A DNA stretch of 60,707 nt from Betaproteobacteria bacterium SCGC AG-212-J23 (GTDB lineage Bacteria > Pseudomonadota > Gammaproteobacteria > Burkholderiales > SG8-39). The stretch covers positions 1 through 60,707 of the forward strand of contig LSTF01000069.1 of NCBI GenBank assembly GCA_001644455.1, given 5' to 3'. Shown in pieces: positions 45,638-49,434 of the stretch. Both the position numbers and the translations under genes were made by a program. The stretch's first letter is position 1. Every line of letters starts with the position of its first letter. Below the pieces are notes generated by a model. The model was given only the letters and a program-made list of their open reading frames with translations, searched no databases and was not told where the DNA came from.

Positions 45638-46000
45638 TCAGGGCTCGCGCAGCCAGGTTTCGGCGTCGTGCAGGCTGGGGAAGTTGCGCACGTTGACGCC
45701 GCGATTCGCCGCCACGACGTTGATGAAGTCGTTGGCTTTGCGCGCGCCTTCCGTCTGGTGGACGAGCGCGATGCGGTGCTTGTGGCCGAAGCCGATGGCA
45801 GGCAGCCGGGTCACGAGCTGGTGCTGGCTGGTCGGCGAAAGCGGGAATTTCTGATCGAGCTCGATCAGGATGCGCGGCCGGCCCGAGCCTTCGCTTTCGT
45901 GGTAGATGAGCGCGCAGACCTCGGAGGGCGGCCGGTCGGTGTCCCGGCCCGACACCTTGACGCGCAGAAACTCCTCGTCGGCCGTGATCGCGTACTCCAT
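45638..46000 (-). CDS. SpoIIAA/STAS-like small protein
   Basis: 120 residues with alternating strands and helices. RILIELDQKF, HRIALVHQ and a terminal SLHDAETWL fit the SpoIIAA-like/STAS fold of stand-alone proteins often annotated as hypothetical. No catalytic motif seen. Its ATG follows the stop of the aminotransferase gene directly (TAAATG), so it is likely translated after it. Function unknown. Confidence 0.65.
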   Translation of the reverse strand: MEYAITADEEFLRVKVSGRDTDRPPSEVCALIYHESEGSGRPRILIELDQKFPLSPTSQHQLVTRLPAIGFGHKHRIALVHQTEGARKANDFINVVAANRGVNVRNFPSLHDAETWLREP

Positions 46001-47497
46001 TTACGCTGCGCGCTTCTTGCGTTGCGCGTCCTTGACGTGCATTTGCGCGTAGGCGCCGTGCGCCGCGGCTTCGGCGTCGCCGACGTGGATCGCCAGCCCC
46101 ATGTCGGAAAGGACCGACCCCAGCGCCGACAGGCAAAGCATCACGTTGTCCGGGCGGCAGCTGTAGCCCATCAGGCCGATGCGCCAGATCTTGCCGGCGA
46201 GCGGCCCGAGGCCGGCGCCGATCTCGATGCTGAACTCGTTGAGCAGCCGCTTGCGCACCTCGGCCTCGTTCACGCCTTCCGGGCAGCGCACCGCATTCAT
46301 CTGCGGCAGCTGGTATTTCTCCGCGACCAGCATCTTCATCCCCATCGCCTCGAGGCCCGCCTTGAGCGCGAGGTGATGGCGCGTGGCGCGCGCCCAGGCG
46401 TTCTCCAGCCCTTCCTCGCGGATCAACAGCAGCGCTTCGTGGAGAGCAAAAAGCGAATTGGTGGGAGCCGTGTGGTGATAGGTGCGCGCGCCGGCGGTCC
46501 AGTAGTTGAAGAGCAGGTTCATGTCCATGAACCAGCTGTGGATCTTGTCCTTCCTCTTCTTCACGTGCTCGATCACGCGCTCGGAGAAGGAAACCGGCGA
46601 GAGGCCGGGCGTGCAGGACAGGCACTTCTGGCTCGCCGAGTAGATGGCGTCGATTTCCCATTCGTCGACCTTCACCGGCGTGCCGGCGAGGGAGGTGACG
46701 GCGTCGACGATCACCATCGCGCCGTGCTTGTGCGCGATCTGCGTCAGCGTCTTCGCGTCGGACTGGCAGCCGGTGGACGTTTCCGCGTGGACGAAGGCGA
46801 CGACCTTCGCGTCCTTGTTCTTCTTCAGCGCGTCCTCGACCTTCTGCGGATCGACCGGCTCGCCCCACTTGTCCTCGACCAGCACCGGCGTGCCGCCGCA
46901 GCGGATGACGTTCTCCAGCATCCGGCCGCCGAACACGCCGTTCTGGCAGACCACGACCTTGTCGCCGGGCGCGACCATGTTGACGAAGCAGAACTCCATG
47001 CCGACCGAGCCCGGCCCGGAGAGCGGGAAGGTGAGCGCGTTCTTCGTCTGGTACACGTAACGAAGCAGAGATTTGAGCTCTTCCATCATCTCGACGAACA
47101 CCGGGTCGAGGTAGCCGATCGCCGGCTGGCTCATGGTGGTGAGCACGCGCGGATGGATCTCGGTCGGGCCGGGGCCCATCAGCGTTCGCTGCGGCGGGTG
47201 GAAGGACTGGATGCGTTTTGCGGGCGCGTACTGGCTCATGGATTCCTCGGAGGCGATTCCAAATGGGGCGTTCTCGGGGCGGGACTTCACCCGCACCGGG
47301 TTCTTGGCGCTGGCTTCGTGGACGACATCCTCGGCGCGGATGCGGCCCTGGGTGACGCGCTCGACTTCGCCCGCCCAGCGGGCCGGGACGTAGCCGGTCT
47401 TCACCCAGTTATGGACGACGGCGCGGTCGAGCTGAAAGGCGCGTGCCACGTCGGCCTGGCTGCCGAAAATCTCGACGAGTTGCTCCGCGCAGTTCAT
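46001..47497 (-). CDS. HTH-fused class V aminotransferase (alanine/serine-glyoxylate type)
   Basis: 498 residues in one frame. Residues 1-60 (MNCAEQLVEIFGSQADVARAF, VVHNWVKTGYVPARWAGEVE, split here) look like a Cro/YdaS-type helix-turn-helix. A roughly 25-residue linker follows. From Met87 a complete fold-type I aminotransferase begins: TLMGPGPTEIHPRVL, HAETSTG, DAVTSLAGTP and the PLP lysine in YSASQKCLS (Lys291). Relatives are alanine/serine-glyoxylate aminotransferases. GAGGA stands 5 nt before Met87, so a separate HTH-less enzyme (412 residues) may also be made. A palindrome at 47515-47533 lies just upstream. Confidence 0.85.
   Translation of the reverse strand: MNCAEQLVEIFGSQADVARAFQLDRAVVHNWVKTGYVPARWAGEVERVTQGRIRAEDVVHEASAKNPVRVKSRPENAPFGIASEESMSQYAPAKRIQSFHPPQRTLMGPGPTEIHPRVLTTMSQPAIGYLDPVFVEMMEELKSLLRYVYQTKNALTFPLSGPGSVGMEFCFVNMVAPGDKVVVCQNGVFGGRMLENVIRCGGTPVLVEDKWGEPVDPQKVEDALKKNKDAKVVAFVHAETSTGCQSDAKTLTQIAHKHGAMVIVDAVTSLAGTPVKVDEWEIDAIYSASQKCLSCTPGLSPVSFSERVIEHVKKRKDKIHSWFMDMNLLFNYWTAGARTYHHTAPTNSLFALHEALLLIREEGLENAWARATRHHLALKAGLEAMGMKMLVAEKYQLPQMNAVRCPEGVNEAEVRKRLLNEFSIEIGAGLGPLAGKIWRIGLMGYSCRPDNVMLCLSALGSVLSDMGLAIHVGDAEAAAHGAYAQMHVKDAQRKKRAA
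47237..47248 (-). promoter_or_regulatory. internal ribosome-binding site and start for the HTH-less aminotransferase
   Basis: On the minus strand GAGGA (47244-47248) is followed after 4 nt by ATG (47239-47237). Homologous aminotransferases begin about here. By contrast, no Shine-Dalgarno is seen before the upstream ATG at 47497. Two products from one frame are therefore possible. Confidence 0.55.
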
Positions 47498-47514
47498 AAG
47501 CCGCAATTTTAGGA

Positions 47515-47533
47515 TGTCAAACTGGATTTGACA
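47515..47533. promoter_or_regulatory. palindromic operator candidate between the HTH-aminotransferase and TPP-enzyme genes
   Basis: TGTCAAA (47515-47521) and TTTGACA (47527-47533) form a perfect 7-bp inverted repeat with a 5-nt spacer. It lies 17 bp before the HTH gene's ATG. It includes TTGACA (47528-47533), a possible -35 for the divergent TPP gene, though the -10 region TTTAGC is poor. Binding by the HTH domain is inferred from position. Confidence 0.55.
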
Positions 47534-47586
47534 ATGTGTCGTTTGCCCTGTTTAGCCGAATGGGCATCGGATAGAAAGGAAAACCT

Positions 47587-49434
47587 ATGGATCCCGAACG
47601 CACCCTGGACCTCAATCCGAAACCCGCAAAGGCGGAGAAGCCTGCGGAAAAGCCGGCGCCCAAGAGCGAAGCGCCGAAGATCGAACCCACCCTCGGTCCG
47701 CGACCGAAGGCGGAAACTCGAGCGTTCAAGCCCGAAACTGCGGCCGACGCCTGGCTGGGCCTCATGGCCGCGCGAGGCATCGACTATCTCTTCGCCAATG
47801 GCGGCACCGACTTCGCGCCGGTGGTCGAGGCGTACGCCAAGGGGCAGAAACTCGGCTGGCGGCTGCCGCAGATCGTGATCGTGCCGCACGAGAACATGGG
47901 CATCGCCATGGCGCACGGCTATGCGATGGTCACCGGCAAGCCGCAGGCGATGATGGTCCATGTCGGCGTCGGCACGGCCAACGCGATCAACGGCCTGATC
48001 AACGCCTCGCGCCAGAACATCCCGATCCTGTTCACCGCCGGCCGCACGCCGATCACCGAATCAGGCGCGCTGCCCGCGGCACGCAACAACTACATCCACT
48101 GGGCCCAGGAGCACTTCGACCAAGGCGGCATGCTGCGCGAGTTCGTGAAGTGGGACTACGAGCTGCGCCACGCCGAGCAGGTCGAGACGGTGATCGATCG
48201 CGCGCTGGCGATTTCGAAGAGCGAGCCGCAGGGTCCGGTGTACGTGACGCTGCCGCGCGAGGTCCTCGCTTCCGACTTTTCGACGCCCTATTCCGAAAAG
48301 GCGACGATCGCACCGGCTACGCCGCCGGCCGCCGATCCGGAGGCGCTGGAGGAAGCCGCGAAGCTGCTGAGCGCCGCCCGCAGCCCGCTGCTCATCACCG
48401 CGAACGGTGGCCGCAACGCCGAAACTTCGCGCGCGATCGAGCAACTCGCGCAGGCGATGGCGGTACCGGTCATCCACTACCGCCCGCGCTACCTTGCCCT
48501 CTCGACCGAGCACCCGATGCACTGCGGCTGGGACCCGCACACCATGCTGAAGGCCGCGGACGTGGTGCTGGTGGTGGACTGCGACGTGCCGTGGATCCCC
48601 AAGGAAGGCCAGCCCAGGCCCGAGGCGAAGGTGATCCACATCGGCCCCGACCCGCTGTTCGCCCGCTACCCCTTGCGGGGCTTCCGCACCGATCTCGCGC
48701 TGACCGGCGCGGTCGCGCCGACACTGCAGGCGCTCTGGCGCAGCGCGCAAAAGCAGGCGGTGTCGCCGAAGCACATCGAGGAGCGCCGCAAGACGGTTTC
48801 GGATCTGTCGAAGGCCATCCGGGAAAAAGCCCGCGGTGGCGTCACGCCCATGCCCTCGAGCATCACCGGCAAGTGGCTCTCGGCGTGCATGAACAAGCTC
48901 CTCGACGCGAACACCATCCTGGTCAACGAATATCCGACCGTGCTCGAGGAAATGACGATCAAGGAGCCGGGACGCTACTTCGGCAATCCCTCCGCGGGCG
49001 GCCTCGGCTGGGGCATGGGCGCGGCGCTCGGCGCGAAGCTCGCTTCGCCCGACAAGACCGTGATCTGCGCGGTCGGCGACGGCGCCTACATGTTCGGCAA
49101 CCCGACCGCGGTGCACTTCGTCTCCGAAGCGATGCGCCTGCCGATGTTGTTCGTCATCGCCAACAACGCGCGCTGGGCGGCGGTGCACCGCTCCACGCTT
49201 GCGACGTATCCCAAAGGGGCCGCTTCCGAATCAAAGCAACCTCCTTTTGCGACGCTCGAGCCCTCTCCCCGTTTCGAGCACGTCATCCAGGCTTCGGGCG
49301 GCCACGGCGAGCGGGTCAGCGAGCCGAAGGAGCTCATGCCCGCGCTCGAGCGCGCGCTGAAGGTCGTCAAGGAAGAGAAACGCCAGGCGCTGGTGAACGT
49401 CTGCCTGGAAGTAAGCTACGTCAAGACGTCCTAG
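47587..49434 (+). CDS. thiamine pyrophosphate-dependent enzyme (acetolactate synthase/benzoylformate decarboxylase superfamily)
   Basis: 615 residues. PYR domain with the cofactor-activating Glu102 in VPHENMGIAMAHG, a central domain, and a PP domain with the metal/TPP motif GDGAYMFGN...ANN. The first 50 residues are a Pro/Lys/Glu-rich, probably disordered extension. The active-site signature does not decide between decarboxylase, carboligase or ligase activity. The FAD-binding features of true acetolactate synthase were not obvious. Divergent from the HTH-aminotransferase; a shared palindrome suggests joint control. AGAAAGGAAA precedes the ATG. Confidence 0.87.
   Translation: MDPERTLDLNPKPAKAEKPAEKPAPKSEAPKIEPTLGPRPKAETRAFKPETAADAWLGLMAARGIDYLFANGGTDFAPVVEAYAKGQKLGWRLPQIVIVPHENMGIAMAHGYAMVTGKPQAMMVHVGVGTANAINGLINASRQNIPILFTAGRTPITESGALPAARNNYIHWAQEHFDQGGMLREFVKWDYELRHAEQVETVIDRALAISKSEPQGPVYVTLPREVLASDFSTPYSEKATIAPATPPAADPEALEEAAKLLSAARSPLLITANGGRNAETSRAIEQLAQAMAVPVIHYRPRYLALSTEHPMHCGWDPHTMLKAADVVLVVDCDVPWIPKEGQPRPEAKVIHIGPDPLFARYPLRGFRTDLALTGAVAPTLQALWRSAQKQAVSPKHIEERRKTVSDLSKAIREKARGGVTPMPSSITGKWLSACMNKLLDANTILVNEYPTVLEEMTIKEPGRYFGNPSAGGLGWGMGAALGAKLASPDKTVICAVGDGAYMFGNPTAVHFVSEAMRLPMLFVIANNARWAAVHRSTLATYPKGAASESKQPPFATLEPSPRFEHVIQASGGHGERVSEPKELMPALERALKVVKEEKRQALVNVCLEVSYVKTS

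Follow-up and report, generated by a model that had tools for sequence, protein, structure and literature searches.

The 60,707-nt stretch of DNA analysed here as a whole (the window) comes from Betaproteobacteria bacterium SCGC AG-212-J23 and carries, on its minus strand at 46001-47497, a gene that appears to join a phage-type DNA-binding head to an aminotransferase. It raises the question of whether such a protein is real and, if so, what a repressor-like head would do on an enzyme. The frame runs from an ATG at 47497 to a stop codon at 46001-46003 and encodes 498 residues with no internal stop. At a G+C content of 67.2%, an 86-codon open stretch is about 14% likely by base composition alone, so that one genome is little proof and comparison decides. 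The original prediction placed a helix-turn-helix (HTH), a linker and a class V aminotransferase in a single frame, and comparison confirms this arrangement, which is in frame in 33 of 61 genomes and in all 80 contig loci that were kept. It had also been envisaged that orthologues might always lack the HTH, with a stop codon separating the parts; instead, many relatives are fused and free of stops, and aminotransferase-only orthologues are numerous outside the fused clade. Directly past the fusion's stop codon begins a 120-residue frame (45638-46000, minus strand) with a weak SpoIIAA-like match, below cut-off.

Two parts of one open reading frame

The head of the protein (residues 1-57; 47327-47497, minus strand) is assigned to the Cro/YdaS type of HTH by Pfam, profile, fold and phage matches. 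The Pfam model YdaS_toxin (PF15943), whose word 'toxin' we do not read as a function, covers residues 6-57 at E = 9.7e-10 and 38.6 bits against a cut-off of 30. P22_Cro (PF14549), with a cut-off of 30.2 bits, falls slightly short in the full protein (29.4 bits) and reaches 34.6 bits in a 67-residue HTH piece, so that the curated cut-off is passed by PF15943 in the full protein and by PF14549 in the HTH piece only. No GntR model in Pfam matches the fusion protein at E ≤ 1, and the N-terminal hallmark of MocR/GabR proteins is thus absent; the predicted departure from the MocR design, with a Cro/YdaS-type HTH and no GntR winged helix, is borne out. Searched against solved structures, a profile of 33 HTH-plus-linker rows retrieved the Cro proteins 3bd1 (3e-5), 5w8y and 1rzs. 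Residues 1-86, modelled from the single sequence (mean pLDDT 81.9), again gave 3bd1 as the best fold match (E = 1.9e-3, TM 0.85 by target length), followed by N15 Cro and P22 Cro; none of the matches to this model attained E 0.001, and YdaS came tenth in the ranking with a poor fit. Among 50,697 phage records, tblastn finds eight with a match to residues 2-59, most of them annotated as regulators, and none of the eight covers the linker. At E ≤ 0.001 the NCBIfam 'carph-isopro' domain picks up every one of the 33 HTH rows too, with the window's row below the cut-off (33.5 against 38 bits).

The linker comprises two stretches of different character. Residues 58-73 (47279-47326, minus strand) are conserved, with A62, P67 and the K71-S72-R73 (KSR) motif invariant in a 33-row alignment (A1); residues 74-86 (47240-47278, minus strand) vary among relatives by whole-codon indels and are probably the enzyme's former 5' leader, now translated.

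The remainder of the protein (residues 87-498; 46004-47239, minus strand) resembles the class V aminotransferases AGT and PucG by PF00266, structure-sequence matches and Foldseek. Aminotran_5 (PF00266) is the best Pfam aminotransferase model, at E = 3.3e-22 on residues 135-429, with class I/II models weaker, and a fold-type-I PLP domain at the C-terminus, the other hallmark of MocR/GabR proteins, is present. The closest solved enzymes are Nostoc AGT (1vjo, 345.9 bits) and PucG (3isl, 294.3 bits), in alignments spanning the whole enzyme part. PucG and AGT also lead the Foldseek ranking despite a mediocre full-length AlphaFold model (mean pLDDT 69.4, pTM 0.59), in which the HTH blocks reach 87-91 and residues 69-163 and 291-300, around K291, fall below 50. 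Lys291 (46625-46627, minus strand) aligns with the lysine of 1vjo and 3isl, which in AGT we take to be the PLP lysine, and is invariant in 53 rows; the structure alignment (A2) draws on 52 of the 80 kept loci, a thinned set of complete ones with an ATG start. By its whole-length alignment and aligned K291, the enzyme part is judged to be kin to the AGT/PucG group of class V and, with its predicted catalytic residue kept, to have the intact enzyme domain of a trigger enzyme. NCBIfam equivalogs fall below their cut-offs: BhcA (215.7 against 650 bits), pyridoxamine-pyruvate transaminase (202.1 against 600) and PhnW (184.6 against 360.8).

Distribution, selection and origin

Across the 61 genomes compared, 33 (the window's included) carry a stop-free fusion and nine carry the enzyme only, at 58-82% identity; within the window's own family, the fusion was not found in 6 of 37 genomes, whose completeness is 63-94%. 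Screening 399 genomes of the order with an HTH-plus-linker probe gave strong matches (E ≤ 1e-28) in 50, which belong to six families and have 51 matching places between them. Fifty of these places lie in open frames of at least 504 codons and the remaining one (G189) is truncated by a contig end; five further genomes among the 399 yielded weak matches only (E > 1e-5). A contig scan with one genome per species, covering 84,980 species, returned 167 stretches encoding relatives. Every one of the 80 that were kept continues into the aminotransferase, 71 being complete and the other 9 truncated by a contig end; L098 and L108 were judged by eye. By title, the kept loci are betaproteobacterial, Burkholderiales, Nitrosomonadales or proteobacterial, and nearly every title is marked MAG. 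Five (L083, L104, L107, L109 and L049) are titled Bordetella parapertussis (four) or Nitrosovibrio (one), in what look like automatic labels; L104 sits among uncultured betaproteobacteria in the tree.

The probes detect close relatives only and would miss a separate fusion elsewhere; within that reach, no other match to the architecture appeared at E ≤ 1e-6 in 369 sampled genomes of the class, and the HTH plus linker had no match at E ≤ 1e-3 in 72,556 plasmid records. The full protein matches 548 plasmid records, 13 of them with coverage of at least 80%, and among the ten matches listed all begin at residue 93 or 96.

The HTH and the conserved linker are under purifying selection. The dN/dS ratio is 0.123 for the HTH, 0.123 for residues 58-73 and 0.228 for residues 74-86, with the enzyme core at 0.104; these values come from 400 of 578 pairs, with identities of 86-97%, after identical, near-identical and shortened rows had been removed, and synonymous sites are well mixed (dS 0.6-1.07). 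Alignment rows here and below are related by descent, and their counts are not counts of independent events.

Of 300 genomes of the order, 123 have an orthologue of the enzyme (E ≤ 1e-130). A quick maximum-likelihood tree was built from 95 rows after identical, near-identical and shortened rows had been removed; long branches in it (L042 with L043) may be falsely joined. Its 76 fused rows fall in one clade with a support of 96, and this clade also contains three enzyme-only rows, all of one family. The starred branches of the tree force two changes; the simplest history, which the tree supports, is a single gain, starting from enzyme-only ancestors, and a single loss. Judged from these sequence comparisons, the fusion is ancient and maintained by selection.

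Palindrome, promoter-like site and a probable second start

Two features of the locus were absent from the original prediction: a palindrome at the gene's own promoter, and a conserved internal start beside a long form whose message is often apparently leaderless. The operator-like palindrome (TGTCAAATCCAGTTTGACA; 47515-47533, minus strand, 19 bp) stands out by its conservation and its co-occurrence with the HTH. Among the fused loci the palindrome, TGTCAAAnTnAnTTTGACA, overlaps the -35 box and spacer of the fusion gene's own promoter-like site, TTGTCA-17-TAAAAT (47506-47534, minus strand), and the start codon lies 8 nt past the -10 box. An independent consensus promoter scan of 47400-47700 found this as the sole promoter-like site, with 0.1 expected. 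Of 103 distinct fused loci, counted after removal of identical and near-identical rows, 101 have a palindrome scoring at least 11 of 13 and the remaining two score 9 and 10; the inner columns across the 103 are TGTCAAAnTnAnTTTGaCA, and in 98 the best -10 box lies 17 nt past TTGTCA (spacing picked as the best of 16-18, ties going to 17). No palindrome scoring at least 11 was found in the 700 nt upstream of 19 enzyme-only loci (best 10), including the three that lost the HTH.

Counted genome-wide as exact matches only, the palindrome occurs 28 times in 24 of the 61 genomes, and its backwards control not at all. All 22 fusion genomes with an exact palindrome have a match before the fusion gene, and 11 of the 33 fusion genomes have zero. 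Two genomes without the fusion (G039 and G059) have one exact palindrome each, inside long frames, and a second match in G035 is the same site, on overlapping contig ends. A wider regulon was rejected, the exact sites being nearly unique per genome and at the fusion gene. Our best guess is that the fusion would act as a repressor with essentially one target, its own gene. The earlier proposal of a repressor gains support from the conserved palindrome over the gene's own promoter, whereas the binding of DNA itself is something we infer from sequence.

In G015, an extra exact palindrome (L169, about 691-710) lies just upstream of a small frame that by eye is dehydrogenase-like, of the ketopantoate-reductase type. 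In the window, a divergent gene for a TPP-dependent enzyme (47587-49434, plus strand; NF006203 at 695.5 bits, cut-off 456) shares an 89-bp intergenic stretch with the palindrome, and because the palindrome lies upstream of this gene too, it is a possible second target.

A conserved operon was rejected, since neighbours differ among 74 fused loci over 6 kb: the clusters, whose names are taken from single members, are TtcA-like at 53 loci, DUF3750 at 44, MetF at 22, AhcY at 20 and the TPP-enzyme at 13. A photorespiratory role is unsupported, with RuBisCO_large in 22 of the 61 genomes but just 12 of the 33 fusion genomes; the window's own genome (60% complete) gave no match to this model. In L083 (7543-8779), a gene resembling the Sbt_1 bicarbonate transporter and a 100-residue frame lie downstream of the fusion.

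The probable internal start, Met87 (47237-47239, minus strand), would open a 412-residue bare enzyme and is preceded by a Shine-Dalgarno-like GAGGA (47244-47248, minus strand), with GGGAGT/GGAG kept at the codon level in relatives. This start is ATG in 79 and GTG in one (L064) of the 80 loci, and ATG in 103 and GTG in one of the 104 aligned rows, within an otherwise variable, indel-bearing linker. A Shine-Dalgarno match of at least 4 nt stands before it in 71 of 80 loci; among the other in-frame ATGs of these genes, the figure is 173 of 1083. Codon choice just ahead of it is skewed: in Gly column 83, 99% of 73 rows use GGG or GGA, more than in any other of the 39 conserved Gly columns (next 71%), and in Ser column 84, 62% of 71 rows use AGT, more than in any other of the 23 Ser columns (next 14%). 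These patterns indicate that the internal start probably yields the bare enzyme as well. For the long form, the first in-frame start lies 6-10 nt past the -10 box in 63 of 103 loci (8 nt in the window), which suggests that its mRNA is leaderless at many of them; the remaining loci have longer leaders, some with a Shine-Dalgarno sequence by eye, and L026 has no standard start there. Leaderless mRNAs have precedents in lambda cI (PMC4965119) and in the C proteins of restriction systems (PMC4824078).

A proposed circuit, its rivals and known systems

Taken together, we think it likely that the gene encodes an autorepressing trigger enzyme and gives rise to both a repressor-enzyme and a bare enzyme. 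Repression of its own promoter is proposed because the palindrome tracks the HTH and is near-unique per genome. Enzyme dimers would bring two HTHs together, and the paired HTHs would bind the palindrome over the -35 box and spacer and block RNA polymerase, so that the level of the enzyme would govern its own synthesis. The mRNA would be read from two starts, for which the sequence support is strong: the first, often leaderless, would give the repressor-enzyme, and the internal Shine-Dalgarno sequence would give the bare enzyme, whose subunits could supply activity and may dilute repressor dimers. More speculatively, DNA binding might change with what the active site holds (glyoxylate, alanine or serine, PLP or PMP form).

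Autogenous control may instead be blind to ligands, the HTH merely steadying the enzyme level by sensing its own concentration alone, a reading that we regard as a serious minority candidate. Essentially one exact site per genome, at the gene's own promoter, is what it would expect, and the internal start could provide diluting subunits, but the fused enzyme domain is a ready-made sensor. A metabolite-gated regulator is a doubtful though still arguable account, in which the active site would be mainly a sensor, as in GabR, substrate or PLP/PMP state would release the operator, and catalysis would be secondary or lost. The domain layout resembles that of MocR proteins, and regulator-enzyme fusions like PutA are ligand-gated, in so far as the sources cited below describe them. 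We nevertheless argue that catalysis matters, because the enzyme core is constrained (dN/dS 0.104, as in a working enzyme), K291 is invariant and the bare-enzyme start is retained. An extension of the autorepressing circuit, which we advance tentatively and hold to be unlikely in its entirety, unites these elements: a metabolite-gated repressor-enzyme and an internal-start bare enzyme from the same mRNA would form mixed dimers that, governed by active-site occupancy and by how leaderless and Shine-Dalgarno initiation are balanced, would make the aminotransferase its own sensor and rheostat; the system would have been born when a phage Cro-type repressor was captured and joined to a housekeeping enzyme that kept its ribosome-binding site.

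We find it improbable that the internal start is a relic, its ATG and Shine-Dalgarno sequence inherited from the enzyme-only ancestor and the long form the sole product. That ancestor started there, and kinship among rows inflates the conservation counts; even so, none of the other 39 Gly and 23 Ser columns compared shows as strong a codon bias as the two just before the start, though dS is 0.6-1.07 elsewhere, and L064 carries GTG instead of ATG. There is little to recommend the idea that the palindrome belongs to another regulator, with the HTH serving some other purpose: binding of the palindrome by the fusion is a deduction, but palindrome and HTH co-occur, the lineage that lost the HTH has no palindrome either, and the fusion gene is nearly the only place with exact sites. 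A chance open frame joining unrelated pieces, or an assembly error, can be set aside, as the 14% expectation for 86 open codons is overruled by in-frame relatives from many assemblies and by selection on HTH and linker.

The fusion looks like a second, independent solution, alongside MocR, for equipping a fold-type-I PLP enzyme with DNA binding; no published description of a Cro-type HTH-aminotransferase fusion was found in open-access PMC text. With close enzyme-only orthologues still extant and a lineage that has lost both HTH and palindrome, one could test directly how an autoregulatory circuit is born and lost, and if both starts are used, the gene would also show how a fusion can gain regulation while the free enzyme is retained.

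In its proposed way of working the protein resembles PutA or GabR, but it is a member of neither family. Pfam, profile and fold comparisons put its HTH in one family with phage Cro (Xfaso 1, N15, P22) and YdaS, which are small, free-standing proteins, whereas here the HTH is joined to an enzyme. Its enzyme part is like the alanine-glyoxylate and ureidoglycine-glyoxylate aminotransferases (1vjo, PucG 3isl, AGXT) over the full length, but the matched solved chains begin at the enzyme. MocR proteins combine a GntR winged helix with an aspartate-aminotransferase-like, mostly class I/II domain, whereas the fusion combines a Cro/YdaS-type HTH with an AGT-like class V enzyme that has close enzyme-only orthologues; MocR membership was rejected on HTH type. 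The DNA-binding part of PutA is a ribbon-helix-helix; both it and the PutA enzyme are unrelated to those of the fusion, which also keeps an internal start. In the literature cited, MocR/GabR proteins share with the fusion an N-terminal HTH and a fold-type-I PLP domain in one chain, and GabR represses its own gene (PMC6677901, PMC6917764). PutA-type trigger enzymes are, like the fusion, metabolic enzymes with a DNA-binding part (here a predicted one), and the cited work has PutA in E. coli binding its own intergenic region only (PMC8249747). AerR, as its cited account presents it, is a cobalamin photoreceptor acting via CrtJ and, unlike our protein, no enzyme-HTH fusion; like it, AerR has one gene, an internal start and two products of differing regulatory effect, both products being predictions in the present case (PMC6199135).
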